Part shown: positions 9,585 through 27,682 of the stretch, piece after piece
How positions within the stretch are numbered: the stretch's first letter is position 1
Layout of the letters: every line of letters begins with the position of its first letter
Assembly (NCBI GenBank): GCA_016210245.1
Contig: JACQUR010000108.1
Location: 1-32,602, forward strand
Direction of reading: 5' to 3'
Length of the DNA stretch: 32,602 bases
From: Chloroflexota bacterium
Lineage (GTDB): Bacteria > Chloroflexota > UBA6077 > JACQUR01
Made by a program: the position numbers and the translations under genes
Notes under the pieces: model-generated
Databases searched by the model: none
Seen by the model: only the letters and a program-made list of their open reading frames with translations
Told to the model about the DNA's origin: nothing

Positions 9585-11096
9585 ATGGCCATCCAAGCCA
9601 GGCACGAGCTAGCGGGAGCCAGGAAACCCCTCTGGCGCGACTTGCGTGAGTGGCTCCTGTTGGTGGATGCCATCGGCGAGCTGAAAACGGTGCGTAGGGC
9701 CAGTTCCGAGGCGGACATCGGCGCTATCGCCGAGATGCTGGACCATGCCGAAGAGAGCCCGTGCGTCGTCTTCGACGACATCCCGGGCTTCGAGCCTGGC
9801 TACCGGGTGATGGTGAACGGTATGGGGACCCGGCGCCGCCAGGCGATCACCCTGGGCCTCGATCCCGAAGAGGCCACCCACGAGCGGCTGCTGGAGTTCT
9901 GGCGCGGGCTGCTGCGCGGCTTCACGCCCATCCCGCCGATCACGGTCGGGAAAGGGGCGATCCAGGAGAACGTGCTGCGGGGCGAGGAGGTGAACCTGGC
10001 GCGCTTCCCAGCCCCCATCTGGCACCCGCTCGATGGGGGCCGCTTCATCGGGACCGCGAGCATCAACATCATGCGCGATCCCGACAGCGGCGCAATCAAT
10101 GCCGGCACGTACCGCAACCAGGTCTTCGATCGAAACAGCATTGGCATTCGGGTCGTGCCCCCCCACCACGGCGGCATCATCAAAGCGAAGTACCTGCAGC
10201 GCGGGGAGCCCTGCCCGATCGTGACGGTGGTGGGGGCTGACCCACTGCTGTTCATGGCCTCGTGCGTGGAAGGGCCTGGCTTTGGGCAGAGCGAGCTGGA
10301 TTGGGCCGGGGGCGTGCGAGGCCAGCCGCTGGAGGTGATCGAAGGCGAGGTGACGGGGCTGCCGATCCCAGCCCACGCCGAGATCGCGCTCGAGGGCTTC
10401 GTCACGACCGACGAGTGGCACAAGGAAGGGCCGTACGGCGAGTGGACCGGCTACTACCAGGACGGGTACGCCCGCGACCAAGTGGTGCGGGTCCACCGGG
10501 TCTACCACAGAAACAACCCGGTCCTCCTGGGCTGCCCGCAGGGCAAGCCCCCCCACGAGGACAACCGCTTCCTGGCCTACCTGCGCGCGGGGATGATCTG
10601 GGACCAACTGGAGAAGGCCGGCGTGCCGGGCGTGCGCGGTGTCTGGAGCCCGCCCGAGGGCGCGAACCGGCTGATGACCGTGGTGGCGATCGAGCAACAG
10701 TACCCCGGGCACGCCAGGCAGGCAGCGCTCATCGCCTCTGAGTGTGCGGCTGCCGTCGACACCGGCCGCATGGTCGTGGTCGTCGACCACCACGTGGACG
10801 TCACTAACCTGCAGGATGTGGTGTGGGCGATCCTGACCCGCTGCGATCCAGCCCGTGACGTGGAGATCATCACTCGGACCCGGTCCGTTCGGACTGACAT
10901 GGCGATCGATCCCGACAAGCGGGAACTGAAGATGAACTCGCGCCTGATCGTCGATGCCACTACGCCGTTCGAGTGGAAGGACCACCCGTTGGCCGGGGAG
11001 ATCATCGCTACGCCTGAGCGAGCCCGGGCCACACGCGAGCGGTGGGGATGGATCCTGGGACAGGCACGCGGGTCGCGTGTCGCTGAATCAGACTGA
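9585..11096 (+). CDS. UbiD-family decarboxylase, type B
   Basis: Close paralog of 108-1586; ATG at 9585, or GTG at 9579 overlapping the preceding TGA. Confidence 0.9.
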   Translation: MAIQARHELAGARKPLWRDLREWLLLVDAIGELKTVRRASSEADIGAIAEMLDHAEESPCVVFDDIPGFEPGYRVMVNGMGTRRRQAITLGLDPEEATHERLLEFWRGLLRGFTPIPPITVGKGAIQENVLRGEEVNLARFPAPIWHPLDGGRFIGTASINIMRDPDSGAINAGTYRNQVFDRNSIGIRVVPPHHGGIIKAKYLQRGEPCPIVTVVGADPLLFMASCVEGPGFGQSELDWAGGVRGQPLEVIEGEVTGLPIPAHAEIALEGFVTTDEWHKEGPYGEWTGYYQDGYARDQVVRVHRVYHRNNPVLLGCPQGKPPHEDNRFLAYLRAGMIWDQLEKAGVPGVRGVWSPPEGANRLMTVVAIEQQYPGHARQAALIASECAAAVDTGRMVVVVDHHVDVTNLQDVVWAILTRCDPARDVEIITRTRSVRTDMAIDPDKRELKMNSRLIVDATTPFEWKDHPLAGEIIATPERARATRERWGWILGQARGSRVAESD

Positions 11097-11134
11097 GGGC
11101 TCAACTCTATCTTCGAAGGCCGGGAGGGAAAGAC

Positions 11135-12307
11135 ATGCACCGCTTGTGGCCAGGCATCGTCGCACTGTCGCTGCTCGCAGCCGTAGCCTGCGCGCCAACC
11201 GCACCACCGAGCCCTGCAGCCGCGCCACCCAGGCCGACGGAGAAGCCAGCCGCTGCCGCTGCGCCCGCGCAGCCGACCCCGCAGCCGGCGGCTAAACCGA
11301 CTGAGAAGCCCGCGGCTAAACCGACCGAGAAGCCCGCCGCCAAGCCGACCGAGAAGCCCGCCGCCAGGCCGGAAGACATCAAGGTGCCGAAGCCGAGCGG
11401 CAACCTGGCTATCAAGGCCGGCCATCCGTCGAGCATCTCGTTCTACGAGGCGCCCCAGATGATGACGCACGAGCGCCTCAACAAGGACGGCTGGAAGATC
11501 GAGGACGTGCTCTTCACTCGCACCGATCTGGGCGCCATCGCGCTCAACGAGGGGAAGATCGACCTCTATATTTCCGTGCCCCTGGACCCGCTCCGGGCTA
11601 TCCAGAAGGGCGGCAAGCTCCGCTGGCTCACAGAGAACAATCCTGGCGAGTTCGTGTTGATCGCCAAGACATCGATCGCCAGGTGCGAGGACTTGAATGG
11701 CAAGCGGCTCGCCCTGCACAACGAGGTCGGCAACACCACCCTGCTGACGAAGCAGTGGATCTTGAGCACCTGCAAGGCGACGCCAAACTACCTCATCATT
11801 CCCGGTGGAGAGAACCGGGTGGTGGCGCTCATGAACGATCAGGTCGACGCCACGTACGTCCAGTTGGGAGATTGGCTCGGCCTTGACGCCCAGGCACCGG
11901 GCAAGTTTCACGTGCTGACAAGCGGCGAGGCGTACAAGATCAGCGGCTCTGGCTTCTGGGCGAACACCGAATGGCTGCAGAAGAATGCAGACGTGGCAAC
12001 CGCCTACGTCGCAGAACTGCTCAAGACCTACCGCATGATCGCCGCCAATCCCAAGCTGCTCGAGGAGGTCGTCCCAAAATACGTGCCGGACCTCGATCGG
12101 AAGGTGCTGCCCACGACGATCAAGGCCTACCTCGACATAGGAAGTTTCCCGGCCAACGGGGGCGACCTGTCGATGCTCGAAGGGGGGATCAGGTTCTTTC
12201 AGGAACAAGGTGAGCTGCAACCAGGTCTGGAGGCTGGGAAGATCGCCGACAGCACAGTCCTCCAGAACGCCTTGAAGATCATCGGCAAGGTGCCGGGCCA
12301 ACGTTAG
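11135..12307 (+). CDS. ABC transporter substrate-binding lipoprotein, NMT1/SsuA-like (SBP1)
   Basis: Lipobox ...LLAAVAC, (KPTEKPAA)n linker, IIPGGENRVVALMNDQVDATYVQLGDW; paralogous to SBP2-4. Confidence 0.85.
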   Translation: MHRLWPGIVALSLLAAVACAPTAPPSPAAAPPRPTEKPAAAAAPAQPTPQPAAKPTEKPAAKPTEKPAAKPTEKPAARPEDIKVPKPSGNLAIKAGHPSSISFYEAPQMMTHERLNKDGWKIEDVLFTRTDLGAIALNEGKIDLYISVPLDPLRAIQKGGKLRWLTENNPGEFVLIAKTSIARCEDLNGKRLALHNEVGNTTLLTKQWILSTCKATPNYLIIPGGENRVVALMNDQVDATYVQLGDWLGLDAQAPGKFHVLTSGEAYKISGSGFWANTEWLQKNADVATAYVAELLKTYRMIAANPKLLEEVVPKYVPDLDRKVLPTTIKAYLDIGSFPANGGDLSMLEGGIRFFQEQGELQPGLEAGKIADSTVLQNALKIIGKVPGQR

Positions 12308-12423
12308 GGAGATTTCGGGTTTCAGGTTGCAGATTTGAGACCCAGGGGTCAGAATCTGCAGTCCGCAGCCAATCTGCGATCTCAACTCTGAACTCTGCAA
12401 TCAAGAAGGAGGAGGCAACCTCG

Positions 12424-13599
12424 ATGCACCCAAGGTGGCTTGCCATTGCAGTCGTGTCCCTGTTCGTGGTCGGCACTGCTTGCGCGCCAGCGGCGGCGCC
12501 CAGCCCGACGGCCGCTCCGGCGAAGCCGGCGGCGACGACCGCGCCGGCCCAGCCGGCGCCAACCGCGGCACCGGCCAAGCCGGCGGCAACCGCAGCGCCC
12601 GCCAAGCCGGCGGCGACGGCCGCGCCGGCCAAGCCGGCCGAGAAGCCCGCGACCAAGCCTGAGGACATCAAGATCCCCAAGCCGAGCGGCAACCTGAACC
12701 TCAAGATCGGCCACCCGTCCAGCATCTCCTTCTACGACGTGCCGACTCAGGTCACCCACGAGCGGCTCAAGAAGGATGGCTGGACCATCGAGAGCGTCCA
12801 GTTCACCCGCACCGACCTCAACACCCAGGCGCTCAGCCAGGGCACGGTCCAGATCTCCATCTCCCAGATCCTCGATCCGCTGCGGGTCTTCGAGAAGGGC
12901 GGCAAGGTTTCCTGGCTCATGGAGCACAACGGCGGCGAGTTCGTGATGATCGCCAAGAACGAGATCAAGACCTGCAAGGACATGGACGGCACGAAGTTCG
13001 CCATCCACGGCGACACCGCGACGACATCTGTAGCCAGCAGGGACTGGCTGCTCAACCAGTGCAAGGTCAAGCCAAACATCCTGGTGATTCCCGGCGGAGA
13101 GAACCGCATCGTCGCCCTGGCGAACAACCAGATCGACGGCACGCAGGTCCAGTTGGCCGACTGGATCAACCTGGACGCCAAGGCGCCGGGCAAGTTCCAC
13201 GTCATCGACACCGGCGGGCTCTACAACATCAGCGGGGCCGGGCTCTGGGCCAACAACGAGTGGCTGGAGAAGAACCAGGACGTGGGCATCGCCTACATCG
13301 CCGAGACGCTCAAGACGTTCCGGATGATCCACGCCAACCCGAAGATCATCGAGGACGCCGTGCTGAAGTACGTGCCGGACACGCCGAAGGACGCGGTCGC
13401 CCCCTCCGTCAAGGCCTACCTGGACATCGTGAAGGCCTGGCCGCAGAACGGCGGCGACACGGCCATGCTGGAGGACACGATCAAGTTCTTCACCCCGCTG
13501 GGTGAGCTGCAGCCGGGCATGGACGCCAAGAAGCTGATCAACACCCGCGTGCTCGAGGAGGCGTTGAAGCTTGTCGGCAAGGTGCCAGGCGCGCGCTAG
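12424..13599 (+). CDS. ABC transporter substrate-binding lipoprotein, NMT1/SsuA-like (SBP2)
   Basis: Lipobox ...VVGTAC, AAPAKPAAT linker, VIPGGENRIVALANNQIDGTQVQLADW. Confidence 0.86.
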   Translation: MHPRWLAIAVVSLFVVGTACAPAAAPSPTAAPAKPAATTAPAQPAPTAAPAKPAATAAPAKPAATAAPAKPAEKPATKPEDIKIPKPSGNLNLKIGHPSSISFYDVPTQVTHERLKKDGWTIESVQFTRTDLNTQALSQGTVQISISQILDPLRVFEKGGKVSWLMEHNGGEFVMIAKNEIKTCKDMDGTKFAIHGDTATTSVASRDWLLNQCKVKPNILVIPGGENRIVALANNQIDGTQVQLADWINLDAKAPGKFHVIDTGGLYNISGAGLWANNEWLEKNQDVGIAYIAETLKTFRMIHANPKIIEDAVLKYVPDTPKDAVAPSVKAYLDIVKAWPQNGGDTAMLEDTIKFFTPLGELQPGMDAKKLINTRVLEEALKLVGKVPGAR

Positions 13600-22186: not shown

Positions 22187-23404
22187 ATGGGAAGCAGCAT
22201 GGCCCGAACGCCGCTGATGGCCGAGCGGGTCGCGAACCCGCCCGGCTCGCCGTCCGGGCTGTTCTCACAGGCGTTCGTCTTCGTGTGCGTCACCACGTTC
22301 CTGGGGTACGCGCAGTACTCGCTGCTCACGCCGGTCCTGCCGCTCTTCATCAAGGACCACGGCGGCTCGGCCAGCCTGGTCGGCCTCGTCACCGCGGCGT
22401 TCAGCGTCACCTCCTTCGCGCTGCGCCCATTCATCGGGCGCGCGGTGGACACCTGGAGCGCCCGGGGCGTGATGGGCCTGGGCACGCTGGCGATGGGGCT
22501 GGCCAGCTTCGGCTACCTGTTCTACGACACCGTGCTGCTGCTGCTCGTCCGCTCCATCCACGGCACGGGCTGGGCGGCGTTCAACACCGGCGGCAAGGTG
22601 CTGCTCTCCACCTCCGCGCCCGCGGAGCGGCGCGGGGAGGCCTCGGGGTACTACTCGATGGCTCAGGGCGTCGCGACTGCCCTGGTGCCGGCCATCGCCC
22701 TGTGGGTCCTGGGCCTGGTGGACTATGCGGGCGTCTTCGCCCTCTCGGCGGTCGGGGGACTGATCGCTACCCTCACCAGCCTGGCCGTGCCCGCGCAGCC
22801 GCACCCGCAGTCGGATGGGCCGCGCGAGTCGTTCTGGGCTGGCCTGGTGGAGCGGTCCGCGCTGCTGCCTTCGGTGCTGGAGTTCCTCACCAAGCTGTCC
22901 CAGCCCGCGGCGGCGGTCTTCGTCCCGCTCTACGCCACCTCCCGAGGGCTGCCGGTCGAATCGCTGGTGTACTACTACCTGGGCTACGGGCTGGTCGGCA
23001 TTGCGGCGCGCGGCGTGCTGGGCAGCCTGTCTGACCGCATCGGGCGAGGCCGGACGATCGCCATGGGCACGACGCTGGGCGCCGTGTCGCTGCTGCTCAT
23101 GGCGCTGGCGCACGACATCTACCTTCTGACGCTGGGCGGGATGATCTTCGGGCTGGGCACGGCCGCCTTCGCGCCCTCGGTCATGGCCCTGGCGATCGAC
23201 CTCGCGCCGGCCAGGCGGCGCGGGGCGGCCATGGCGACCTACTCCATGGCCTTCCAGCTTGCGCAGGGGGCAGGGGGCCTCCTGTGCGGCGTGTTGATCG
23301 ACCTGGCCGGGTTCGAGGTCATGTACCTCACCATGGCAGTTGCTTCCCTCTCCGCACTGCTCGTGGTGTTCCAGTACCGAAGCACCCTGAGCCCCGAGCA
23401 CTGA
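22187..23404 (+). CDS. MFS transporter (MFS1)
   Basis: 12-TM pattern; AAFSVTSFALRPFIGRAVDTWSARGVMGLGTLAMG. Confidence 0.85.
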   Translation: MGSSMARTPLMAERVANPPGSPSGLFSQAFVFVCVTTFLGYAQYSLLTPVLPLFIKDHGGSASLVGLVTAAFSVTSFALRPFIGRAVDTWSARGVMGLGTLAMGLASFGYLFYDTVLLLLVRSIHGTGWAAFNTGGKVLLSTSAPAERRGEASGYYSMAQGVATALVPAIALWVLGLVDYAGVFALSAVGGLIATLTSLAVPAQPHPQSDGPRESFWAGLVERSALLPSVLEFLTKLSQPAAAVFVPLYATSRGLPVESLVYYYLGYGLVGIAARGVLGSLSDRIGRGRTIAMGTTLGAVSLLLMALAHDIYLLTLGGMIFGLGTAAFAPSVMALAIDLAPARRRGAAMATYSMAFQLAQGAGGLLCGVLIDLAGFEVMYLTMAVASLSALLVVFQYRSTLSPEH

Positions 23405-23435: not shown

Positions 23436-24599
23436 ATGTCTACCGAGGTGGAGAAGCACCACCACCACGGAGCCCGCCTGGGCGATCCGGAGATCAGCGG
23501 CGACAAGTGGTGGGCGAACGAAGGAGAGCGCCTGGTCCAGCTCTACCAGGCCGGCGCCGTCATGGCCAGCGGAGAGCGCGCCGCAGCCGAGCGGGAGCTG
23601 GCGACGCGCGAGCGGCGGCGGAAGACGCCGGTGGTGATCAAGCGGGAATCGATTCAGTTCGAGCCCTCGTCCTACAAGGGCGTCCACATCGGCTACATCG
23701 TCGCCCCGCACCGGGGCATCGAGGTGCGCAACATCCAGTTGGAGGTCCACCGGCTGCTGCCAGGGGCGCACACGGAGGCGCACCGGCACGGCGAGGCGGT
23801 CTGCCACGTGCTCAACGGCCACGGGCGCAGCCTCGTCGAGGGCAAGGAGTACGAGTGGGGGCCGCACGACTCGCTGCACATCCAGAAAGGGGCCTGGCAC
23901 CAGCACCTCAACGCCAGCGCAAGCGAGCCCGCCCATATCCTGGTGGGCAAGCCGGCGCCCATCCTGGAGCACCTCGCGCCCCACGCCATGGTCTACAAGG
24001 GCGACAGCTTCAGCGACATGCCCGACGACTTCATGCCCGAGCACCCCTTCACCCACGAGCGCGTGCCGGTGGGCTACGTGGGCGGCGAGAAGTGGATGAG
24101 CCACCTCCAGCTTGCCACCCACGAGCGCCTGGCCGAGCTGGAGCGGCGGCGGCGCGAGGCGCGGGTGCTGCTCAAGGCCAGCGAGGCGGTGATCGAGCGC
24201 TCCGAGCACAAGGGCGACTGGAAGGTGGGGCTGATCGACGAGTACCTGGGCTTCGACAACCGGATCCTGGCCATGTACATCCACCAGATGCCGCCCAGCA
24301 GCTACACCGAGACCCACAAGCACGGCGAGGCGATCGTGTACGTCTTGAGCGGGCGGGGCTACAGCATCGTCGAGGGCGAGCGCTACGACTGGCAGGCCGG
24401 CGACTGCATCTTCGTCCAGCCCGGGGTGTGGCACCAGCACTTCAACAGCCATCCCCAGCAGGTTTCGCAGCACCTGGCCCTGTACGTCGCGCCGCTGCGA
24501 GACCGCATCGTCCGCGGCGCGGAGTTCGTCGACTGGAAGACCGAGCCCGACTACCAGTCCCCAGCCGTGGAACTGCCCGCCGGCGAATGGTGGAAGTAG
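23436..24599 (+). CDS. Two-cupin-domain protein (bicupin, gentisate-dioxygenase-like architecture)
   Basis: Domain 1 PGAHTEAHRHGEAVCHVLNGHG...GAWHQHLN; domain 2 PSSYTETHKHGEAIVYVLSGRG...GVWHQHFN. Confidence 0.85.
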   Translation: MSTEVEKHHHHGARLGDPEISGDKWWANEGERLVQLYQAGAVMASGERAAAERELATRERRRKTPVVIKRESIQFEPSSYKGVHIGYIVAPHRGIEVRNIQLEVHRLLPGAHTEAHRHGEAVCHVLNGHGRSLVEGKEYEWGPHDSLHIQKGAWHQHLNASASEPAHILVGKPAPILEHLAPHAMVYKGDSFSDMPDDFMPEHPFTHERVPVGYVGGEKWMSHLQLATHERLAELERRRREARVLLKASEAVIERSEHKGDWKVGLIDEYLGFDNRILAMYIHQMPPSSYTETHKHGEAIVYVLSGRGYSIVEGERYDWQAGDCIFVQPGVWHQHFNSHPQQVSQHLALYVAPLRDRIVRGAEFVDWKTEPDYQSPAVELPAGEWWK

Positions 24600-24654: not shown

Positions 24655-24749
24655 GAGAGACGGGATGCACCACGGAGACACGGAGACACGGAGTTTTCTT
24701 ATGAGAACATCTCCGTGTCTCCGTGTCTCCGTGGTGCATCCCGTCTCTC
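24655..24749. repeat. 39-bp perfect inverted repeat with (ACACGGAG)n arms
   Basis: Arms 24655-24693 and 24711-24749 exact; 17-nt AT-rich loop. Confidence 0.95.
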
Positions 24750-24805: not shown

Positions 24806-25399
24806 GTGGCTAGTGATGCCGCCCAGGCGTATGCGCGGGCGTGCGTGGCCCAGGGCGAGGCCGAAGTGGAGCGCCTGCGGGCGGAGGTCCGCGCCAGCGC
24901 GGAGCGAGTGACGCAGCTCTCGGCCCAGTTGCGAGCGGCGAGCCGTGCCATCCACGCCGCCCGCACGCGCCTGGGTGCCCTGGAGGCGCTGCTGGCAACC
25001 GAGCAGGCGCGCTTCGAGCAGGAGTTCGAGCAGCTCGCCACGTTTCCAAAGGTGCGCGGCGTGGAGATGGACGGTGCGCTCATCCGCGTCCTGACCGACA
25101 CCATCTACCTCGACCACCTGGGCCGGCGCTATCGCATCGGGGAGTTCGCGCTCGAGCTGGACCTCGATCGGGGCATCCGCACGATCAACCTGAGCAACAC
25201 GGGCCAGAAGAGCGGATGGGACCACCCCCACGTCCAGGCGGGGCTGCCCTGCCTGGGCAACCTGCGCGACGGCTTCGAGAAGCTGCTGGGCGAGTACCAG
25301 GTCGTCCCGCTGGTTTCCATGCTCATCCAGTTCCTCGAGACCTTCAACCCGGACACCGCGTACGGCCCCATCGACCTCTGGGAGAAGGTGGCAACGTGA
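24806..25399 (+). CDS. Coiled-coil protein with UBC/E2-like C-terminal domain
   Basis: N-terminal heptad-like Ala/Glu/Arg region; C-terminal YRIGEFALELDLDRGIRTINLS...HPHVQAGLPCLGN...LVSMLIQFLETFNPDTAYGPIDLWE resembles the E2 HPN-Cys region, candidate Cys149 (25250-25252). GTG start. Confidence 0.7.
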   Translation: MASDAAQAYARACVAQGEAEVERLRAEVRASAERVTQLSAQLRAASRAIHAARTRLGALEALLATEQARFEQEFEQLATFPKVRGVEMDGALIRVLTDTIYLDHLGRRYRIGEFALELDLDRGIRTINLSNTGQKSGWDHPHVQAGLPCLGNLRDGFEKLLGEYQVVPLVSMLIQFLETFNPDTAYGPIDLWEKVAT

Positions 25400-25965
25400 T
25401 CTTCCAGCCTGCCGATGCGGGTGGGGACGAGCCCCCGCCCTACGAGCCCCACCTGGCCTTCACCGCGCCAGCCTGGCGCAAGCTGGTGCTCTACGTCCTC
25501 AACTGCCCGTTCGAGATCGGCGGCCTGGGCCTGGTGGAGGCGCGCGGCCAGGACTTCCTGGTCACCGATGTGCTGCTGGTGGAGCAGGACGTGAACGACA
25601 TCGCCACCCGGCTGGACAGCGGCGCGGTGAGCGCGCTCCTGCTCCAGTTGCTCGAGTCCGGGCGCGACCCCGGCGAGCTGAAGCTGTGGTGGCACAGCCA
25701 CGCCCACGAAGCGCCCTTCTGGAGTGGCGTGGACGAGCAGACCATCGAGCGCTTCCAGAACGACTTCATGCTCTCAGTGGTCAGCAACCACGAGCTGCGC
25801 TTCCTGGCCCGCCAGGACCACTACGCGCCGCGCCGGACGACCTGGGTCTGGGTGGACAAACCGTCCGACGGACTGGAGTCCAGTCCCGAGGAGGTCGAAG
25901 CGGTCCGCGCCGAGATCGCCGCCAGGACGCGGCACGTGCCACGCGATCGGACCCGGATCTTCTGA
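25396..25965 (+). CDS. JAB1/MPN/Mov34 (JAMM) metalloprotease-like protein
   Basis: 189 aa from GTG 25396 (GTGA overlap with upstream stop); complete JAMM motif E40...H100-S-H102-x7-S110-x2-D113 (CPFEIGG... WWHSHAHEAPFWSGVDEQ). Confidence 0.85.
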   Translation: MIFQPADAGGDEPPPYEPHLAFTAPAWRKLVLYVLNCPFEIGGLGLVEARGQDFLVTDVLLVEQDVNDIATRLDSGAVSALLLQLLESGRDPGELKLWWHSHAHEAPFWSGVDEQTIERFQNDFMLSVVSNHELRFLARQDHYAPRRTTWVWVDKPSDGLESSPEEVEAVRAEIAARTRHVPRDRTRIF

Positions 25966-25966
25966 C

Positions 25967-27187
25967 ATGGCGGCGCCCGCGCCAGGGACCAGGCCGGCCG
26001 GGGGCTCCAGAGCGGCGCGCGAGCCGCTCTGGAGCCCCCCGTTCCTGCTCATTTGCGGCTCGCAGTTCCTGAGCTACGCCAACAACGTGATGCTCCACCC
26101 GGTCTTGCCACTCTACCTGGCCAGCCTTGGCCAGACGCCCGCCTTCGTTGGCCTGACCGTGGCCGCTTTCAGCGTCACCTCCTTCGCTCCCCGCCCGCTG
26201 GTAGGCCAGGGCGTCGATCGCTGGAGCGCGCGCGGCGTGTACGTGCTCGGGGCGCTGGCGCTCGCTGCGTCCAGCTTCAGCTACCTGCTGCCCCTCGTGG
26301 CCCTGCTGCTGCTCATGCGCACCGTCCACGGCCTCGGCTGGGCCGCAGTCAACACGGCCGGCGTCACGATCGTCTCCGAGACGACGCCCGCCAGCCGCCG
26401 CGGCGAGGGCGTCGGGTACTTCGGCATGACGCGCGGCATCGCGACGGGCCTCCTGCCAGCGCTGGGCGTCTGGCTCGTCGCGGGCACAGGCTTCCCCTTG
26501 ATCTTCGTCCTGTCCGGCCTGTTCGGTCTCGGCGCGGCGTGTACCGCGGCCATGGTGCCGACCGCGCCGCGTGCGCGGCAGGCCGAGTCGGGCGGCGGCT
26601 TCTGGAGCAACCTGGTCGAGCCGCGGGTTGCCCTGCCGGCGACCCTGCGCGTCCTGCTCAACACCACCCACCCGATCACCACGGCCTTCGTCGCGCTCTA
26701 CGCCCGGGAGCGGGGCATCCAGATCGAGGACTTCTCGTTCTACTACCTGGCCAGCGGCTTCGCCATGGTCGGCGCCCAGTCCCTGGCCGGATTCTCCGAC
26801 CGCTGGGGACGGGCGCCGCTGATCGCCGTCGGCTTCACCGCCAGCACTCTTGGCCTGGCCAGCATGCTGTGGGCCTCGGCGCTCCTGCCGCTCGTGCTGG
26901 GCGGCGCGCTGTGGTCGGCCGGGGTGGGCCTGCTGGAGCCGGCGCTGCTGGCGCTGGCCATCGACAAGGCCCCGCCCAGCCACCGCGGCGCCAGCATGGC
27001 TACCTACACGGCCTCGTTCCAGGTCGGAACCACGATCGGCGGACTGGTGTGGGGAGTCGCCATCGAGCAGGTGGGCTACAGTGGGATGTTCCTCGGAGCG
27101 ATCGCGGTGCTCCTGGCCGGGCTGGTCCTGCTGGCCGCGAACTGGGAGTCGGCCGGCGGGCGGGGGCTCAGCCAAGGAAAGACGTAG
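25967..27187 (+). CDS. MFS transporter (MFS2), paralog of MFS1
   Basis: ATG one nucleotide after the JAMM stop codon; AAFSVTSFAPRPLVGQGVDRWSARGVYVLGALA. Confidence 0.85.
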   Translation: MAAPAPGTRPAGGSRAAREPLWSPPFLLICGSQFLSYANNVMLHPVLPLYLASLGQTPAFVGLTVAAFSVTSFAPRPLVGQGVDRWSARGVYVLGALALAASSFSYLLPLVALLLLMRTVHGLGWAAVNTAGVTIVSETTPASRRGEGVGYFGMTRGIATGLLPALGVWLVAGTGFPLIFVLSGLFGLGAACTAAMVPTAPRARQAESGGGFWSNLVEPRVALPATLRVLLNTTHPITTAFVALYARERGIQIEDFSFYYLASGFAMVGAQSLAGFSDRWGRAPLIAVGFTASTLGLASMLWASALLPLVLGGALWSAGVGLLEPALLALAIDKAPPSHRGASMATYTASFQVGTTIGGLVWGVAIEQVGYSGMFLGAIAVLLAGLVLLAANWESAGGRGLSQGKT

Positions 27188-27615: not shown

Positions 27616-27682
27616 CACCACGGAGCCACGGAGCCACGGAGCTTTTTCTCAGAAGACTCCGTGGCTCCGTGGCTCCGTGGTG
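27616..27682. repeat. 26-bp perfect inverted repeat with (CCACGGAG)n arms
   Basis: Arms 27616-27641 and 27657-27682 exact; related to 24655-24749. Confidence 0.95.

Follow-up and report, generated by a model that had tools for sequence, protein, structure and literature searches.

A Chloroflexota E2-like/JAMM gene pair as a probable part of a compact ubiquitin-like conjugation cassette

What is the role of two overlapping genes that encode an E2-like protein and a JAMM protease, when their surroundings hold neither an E1 gene nor a gene for a ubiquitin-like protein (Ubl)? The stretch of DNA in which they lie, here called the window, spans 32,602 nucleotides and makes up all of contig C10. The MAG to which this contig belongs, from a Chloroflexota bacterium, comprises 4.4 Mb in 547 contigs and is 74.6% complete. 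We propose, at a probability of roughly 60%, that the pair supplies the E2-like and JAMM parts of a minimal reversible ubiquitin-like conjugation cassette.

The gene pair and its neighbors in the window

The pair is found on the plus strand, in the order MFS, double-cupin, E2-like, JAMM and second MFS:

22187..23404, + strand: MFS transporter gene upstream of the cupin gene, a paralog of the downstream MFS gene
23436..24599, + strand: double-cupin gene (gentisate / 5-aminosalicylate dioxygenase-like), the conserved neighbor
24806..25399, + strand: E2-like gene, 197 aa, GTG start
25223..25261, + strand: putative active-site segment HPHVQAGLPCLGN (H140-N152) of the E2-like gene, with candidate catalytic C149
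25396..25965, + strand: JAMM/MPN+ gene, 189 aa; its GTG start overlaps the stop codon of the E2-like gene
25967..27187, + strand: MFS transporter gene, not conserved in the relatives described below

As the first-pass annotation of this DNA had described, the two genes overlap by GTGA (25396-25399), the first encodes a coiled coil and HPHVQAGLPCLGN with its candidate Cys149, and the second encodes a complete JAMM motif. The E2-like protein consists of a coiled coil (~residues 2-77), a strand-rich part (83-130), the tripeptide HPH (140-142), C149 and two C-terminal helices. GC3 is coding-like in both genes, at 0.91 in that for the E2-like protein. Inspection of its C-terminal domain revealed the pattern HPHV-x4-PCLG, which resembles the HPN-like tripeptide, with a Cys about eight residues on, of UBC/E2 proteins, His replacing the Asn of HPN. 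Alignment showed H140, P141, H142 and C149 to be invariant among the homologs. Profiles of Pfam (including UQ_con and Prok-E2), NCBIfam, PHROGs and PADLOC gave no E2 family match to this domain, and tblastn of the protein against plasmids and phages returned nothing useful.

In the second protein all five residues of the JAMM zinc site are present (E40, H100, H102, S110 and D113, numbering Met as 1), and this arrangement, the Glu plus H-x-H-x7-S-x2-D of JAMM/MPN+ metalloproteases, does not vary between the window protein and three homologs. The protein scored 18.7 bits (E 0.0017) against Pfam Prok-JAB (PF14464), under the curated cut-off of 25, and so we classify it by its motif as a diverged JAMM/MPN+ member. 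The relatives' genomes also carry a lone JAMM paralog (L013 / L026:8974-9561), 47% identical, which lies between SDR-like and DinB-like genes, has no E2-like gene beside it and scores 21.3 bits against Prok-JAB.

The pair is rare. The E2-like gene was found in three of 399 sampled Chloroflexota genomes (two genera), always adjoining a JAMM gene; the JAMM gene occurred in the same three genomes, a DNA pattern for HPH...PCLG matched the same three only within the phylum, and class-level searches added no E2-like genomes. HPHV-x5-C is present in 3/3; the conserved Cys and the pairing with JAMM, for which a homolog survey had been suggested, were both found. Two further weak matches in the survey (L008 and L009) were set aside, their similarity being that of coiled coils only, to a protein encoded beside ATP-synthase-like genes.

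The pair had also been described as welded to an MFS transporter. This holds for the window, where the downstream MFS gene starts 1 bp past the JAMM gene, but not for the relatives, in which the pair adjoins no MFS gene; moreover, a 42%-identical MFS paralog lies upstream, and the conserved neighbor is the double-cupin gene. The genes upstream include UbiD-like, xanthine-dehydrogenase-like, substrate-binding and permease ones, and the cluster, judging by translations read by eye, looks catabolic. The two paralogous MFS genes flank the cupin-E2-JAMM block of the window and are missing there in the relatives. An inverted repeat (CACCACGGAGACACGGAG... and its complement) lies at 24662-24745, between the cupin and E2-like genes, and CACGGAG runs at 27619-27635 resemble it.

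A complete cassette in two related genomes

Scanning of genome contigs identified two Chloroflexota genomes of one genus (L003 and L004) whose E2-like genes are 53-54% identical to that of the window, and in which the pair is accompanied by further genes:

L003:9117-9779, - strand: ThiF/E1 gene, 220 aa, single domain, divergent from the E2-like gene
9896-10570: E2-like gene
10567-11217: JAMM gene
L003:11267-11476: Ubl gene, 69 aa, ending in IKGG
11557-12792: double-cupin gene, 49-50% identical to that of the window

The order E1 // E2-JAMM-Ubl(GG)-cupin is complete in both genomes. The E1 matches the ThiF profile (E 9e-27) and carries no rhodanese domain. In the PDB, the Ubl finds SAMP2 (E ~5e-7) and PF1061 (E ~8e-7) as its best matches, in alignments that extend to the GG end; by phmmer, residues 5-69 align with SAMP2 (5lda_B; E 5.3e-7). 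With its similarity to SAMP2, its GG end and a length close to the ~67 aa of SAMP2-type Ubls, it belongs to that type, and the window has no such gene. The Ubl also resembles ThiS-type carriers (NCBIfam PRK08364, E 1.5e-8).

Given this complete locus, we regard the window pair as belonging to a complete Ubl cassette, of which the window would hold a partial copy. The first-pass annotation had correctly noted that no E1-like or Ub-like gene is visible in the window (our own inspection likewise gave no E1 gene there, nor any small coding-like ORF with a GG end), and had suggested an E1-less module. Since the relatives carry E1 and Ubl genes right beside the pair, a design without E1 is unsupported.

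Orthologs of the relatives' E1 and Ubl were not found in the assembled part of the window's genome, which at 74.6% completeness is no proof of their absence. The rest of the MAG offered only generic or sulfur/cofactor-type candidates, and these were set aside: a ThiS-like gene beside an aldehyde-ferredoxin-oxidoreductase-like gene (C277), ThiS/MoaD-like and ThiF-like genes in a cysteine/sulfur cluster with a Mec-like JAB (C347), a MoeB/ThiF-like gene cut by the contig end (C318), and an E1-like gene beside a NACHT-HEAT gene (C202). In the last of these (L023, G000:C202, 6135-11312), the E1-like gene (429 aa) is convergent with the NACHT-HEAT gene, a 94-aa small protein is encoded as well, and the contig ends adjacent. 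Elsewhere in the same genome (L027, G000:C232, 10762-13110), a JAB-domain protein has YRSDVFS in place of H-x-H, is fused to a long repeat-like region and, judging by its residues, is probably inactive.

The pair of the window might then work without an E1 and Ubl of its own, as the degenerate or repurposed peptidase/adaptor pair that had been suggested, possibly borrowing the cysteine-pathway E1 and Ubl of contig C347. The two genes are indeed missing at the position they occupy in the relatives, the assembled genome holds no ortholog of either, and the relatives' lone paralog demonstrates that such a JAMM gene exists unaccompanied. Nevertheless, this explanation appears to us quite unlikely: the MAG is incomplete, and the retention of C149, HPH and all JAMM residues suggests selection for catalysis.

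Kinship with crAss-like and jumbo phages

The closest relatives found for the E1 of the two Chloroflexota genomes are encoded by crAss-like, Flavobacterium and Xanthomonas/Erwinia jumbo phages, and sequence comparison shows this kinship in two ways. In blastp, all 11 crAss-like, Flavobacterium and jumbo phage E1s outranked every bacterial or plasmid E1 compared, and in a tree of moderate supports the E1 joined those of crAss-like phages (support 71) and then that of a jumbo phage (89), apart from the PRTRC, ThiF, MoeB and multi-Ub E1s. An E1 of this phage-type group was found in the relatives' locus only, and none in the window's genome. The JAMM profile behaved similarly, aligning with crAss JAMMs over 120 columns at a probability of 67%, versus <1% for both PRTRC-A and the Mec-like JAB of its own genome.

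In crAss-like loci, the E1 gene lies near a JAMM gene, just upstream of which, mostly overlapping and otherwise abutting, is a gene for an HSH...C-[LTI]-G protein; across 11 sequences of this type, HSH, Cys and the final Gly do not vary. In the jumbo phage, the E1 gene is preceded by genes for a small protein with a GG end and, just upstream of E1, for a large one with IHPHM...LCLG. We composed the motif H-x-H-[VIMLC]-x(4-25)-C-[LTIVF]-G after inspecting the sequences, and so its counts are supportive and no independent test: it was matched in 0/5000 shuffles of the window protein and in 0 to 5 of 5000 per protein across the phage and Chloroflexota E2-like proteins, and among 1206 mechanical ORFs of 25 loci it occurred only in the phage and Chloroflexota E2-like genes. 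Between the Chloroflexota and crAss E2-like profiles only 21 columns around the motif aligned, at a probability of 5-6%, with a score above that of 60/60 column-shuffled controls. Against the jumbo-phage domain, and likewise against a plasmid UQ_con E2, the E2-like profile scored no better than controls, pairwise alignment with the jumbo-phage domain was not significant, and the crAss E2-like profile found no E2 match in the PDB.

These comparisons raise a broader possibility, which we advance tentatively and at slightly under even odds, namely that crAss-like phages, jumbo phages and a few Chloroflexota share an unrecognized E2 family (HxH...CxG plus a coiled coil or long N-terminal region) which, with a minimal E1 and a JAMM and/or GG-ended Ubl, would form a separate bacterial/viral Ubl-conjugation lineage. 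In the literature searched, which covers few subscription papers or preprints, no account presents the crAss-like genes as a Ubl system, so the novelty is provisional.

Several of the phage gene runs deserve mention in their own right. In the jumbo phages PhiXhv-12 and Ep032 (L038:736-4612 and L053:233-4112), a KASGG-ended small protein, an HPHM...CLG large protein and an E1 are encoded together, in what by gene content is possibly a phage Ubl-conjugation operon. In the crAss-like and Flavobacterium phages (L035-L037 and L039-L046), E1-like, JAMM and HxH...CxG genes are clustered in a single run, mostly close to genes for primase and uracil-DNA glycosylase; their annotations read thiamine biosynthesis, metalloprotease domain or hypothetical.

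The phage data bear on the main rival to a conjugation cassette, a sulfur-carrier or small-molecule pathway. Mec hydrolyzes CysO-cysteine. By analogy, the E1 and the ThiS/SAMP2-like Ubl would make a thiocarboxylate or a Ubl-metabolite adduct, the JAMM enzyme would hydrolyze the adduct, and the E2-like Cys protein would be an acceptor or scaffold in a catabolic cluster, with no protein ligase involved. The fit of the Ubl to ThiS-type carriers agrees with such a role, as do the metabolic neighbors in both settings (cupin, xanthine-dehydrogenase-like and UbiD-like), the cysteine cluster with Mec-like JAB, ThiS/MoaD-like and ThiF-like genes in the same genome, and the still unproven UBC fold. We nonetheless judge it rather unlikely, as the relatives' E1 is devoid of a rhodanese domain and stands apart from ThiF and MoeB, the JAMM profile fits phage JAMMs and not the genome's own Mec-like JAB, and phages, too, carry the HxH...CxG partner, with no genes of such a pathway adjacent to it.

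Predicted fold, proposed mechanism and comparison with known systems

AlphaFold2 models of the E2-like protein, built from only three sequences, are of low confidence (mean pLDDT 69 for the full length and 48 for the domain alone). Both contain a helix, a strand run, the motif loop and two helices, which is the order of the UBC fold: helix, strands, active-site loop, helices. A Foldseek search of the PDB with the domain model placed ten E2 chains among the top 50 weak hits, none of which reached E 0.001; the first-ranked was human Ubc2b, and one of the ten came from a bacterial E1-E2-Ubl complex. Foldseek against viral structures was uninformative, with no hit reaching E 0.001. The models thus suggest a UBC fold for residues 78-197. 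The original proposal of an E2-like/JAMM pair stands as to the invariant active-site residues, the linkage to E1 and a GG-ended Ubl and the matching crAss-like set, while the UBC fold itself is unproven, the E2 hits being individually non-significant.

Could the first gene instead encode a coiled-coil protein unrelated to E2s, whose conserved His/Cys site might, for instance, bind a metal, and which acts as an adaptor for JAMM? HPH...C could bind metal, no profile library recognized the protein, and its models are weak; yet it is linked to E1 and a GG-ended Ubl in the relatives, the same signature stands beside E1/JAMM in phages, and E2 structures appear among the fold hits, so we consider such an adaptor unlikely.

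Returning to the conjugation cassette, the data show the genes, their motifs, their linkage and the relation of the E1 to phage E1s, and from these we infer an E2 fold and activity, a target and a direction of chemistry as follows. In the complete version of the relatives, the single-domain ThiF/E1 would adenylate the GG tail of the SAMP2-like Ubl; the E2-like protein would accept the Ubl on C149 (HPH...C) and hand it to a target, perhaps selected via the coiled coil; and the JAMM enzyme would take it off again. The double-cupin enzyme next door is our best guess for the target or partner pathway. In the archaeal SAMP1/HvJAMM1 pair, a metabolic enzyme is reversibly inhibited (PMC4443979), which makes the cupin enzyme a reasonable first target candidate. 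In the window's genome, the E1 and Ubl may be encoded elsewhere, unassembled, replaced by sulfur-pathway ones, or lost.

Taken together, the data indicate a compact E1/E2/JAMM/Ubl system whose E2-like member is unrecognized by the family libraries scanned, and whose tag in the relatives is SAMP2-like, a type of tag for whose attachment archaea use no E2. Should the link to phages be real, abundant gut phages would carry Ubl conjugation under present annotations of thiamine synthesis and hypothetical proteins, which is directly testable in crAss001.

Among known gene sets, those of crAss-like phages (e.g., crAss001 gp78-gp76) have the closest E1s found and, as here, an HxH...CxG gene directly before JAMM, mostly overlapping it. 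The Xanthomonas/Erwinia jumbo phage sets share a GG-ended small protein with the relatives, but no JAMM was seen beside the jumbo E1. The phage proteins of these sets are larger and diverged, and homology of the whole E2 domain to Chloroflexota is not statistically secure. The type 6d bacterial Ub-like operon (PRTRC, Prok-E2_D; Iyer et al. 2006, PMC1779556) has separate Ubl, JAB, E1-like and E2-like genes, as does the relatives' cassette. However, in its E2-like proteins the Cys is not preceded by the classical His, whereas HPH precedes it here; the operon has ParB, E and F partner genes, and its E1 and JAMM group apart from those described here; our loci yielded no PF14460 match and no DUF2016-JAB/ParB/E/F partners, whereas PRTRC references matched in the same library. 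BilABCD is built on the same principle, an operon that combines a Ubl, an E2, a JAMM peptidase and an E1, but in its published description (PMC11354881) the motif of BilB is CEHH, BilD contains a Cys domain besides two adenylation domains, and BilA carries two Ubl domains, in contrast to the HPH...C, the single-domain 220-aa E1 and the single SAMP2-like Ubl found here. The set described here thus fits neither PRTRC nor Bil as defined. The Mec/CysO-type JAB systems, represented in the genome itself on contig C347, likewise combine a JAB peptidase with a ThiS/MoaD-like Ubl and ThiF, yet have no E2-like gene and a JAB that the JAMM profile does not fit. The nearest functional precedent, by analogy, would be the archaeal SAMP/JAMM1 system, with its SAMP2-like GG Ubl, minimal ThiF-type E1 and JAMM deconjugase; to our knowledge, the archaeal SAMP scheme has no E2, in contrast to the loci described here, to which an E2-like gene belongs.
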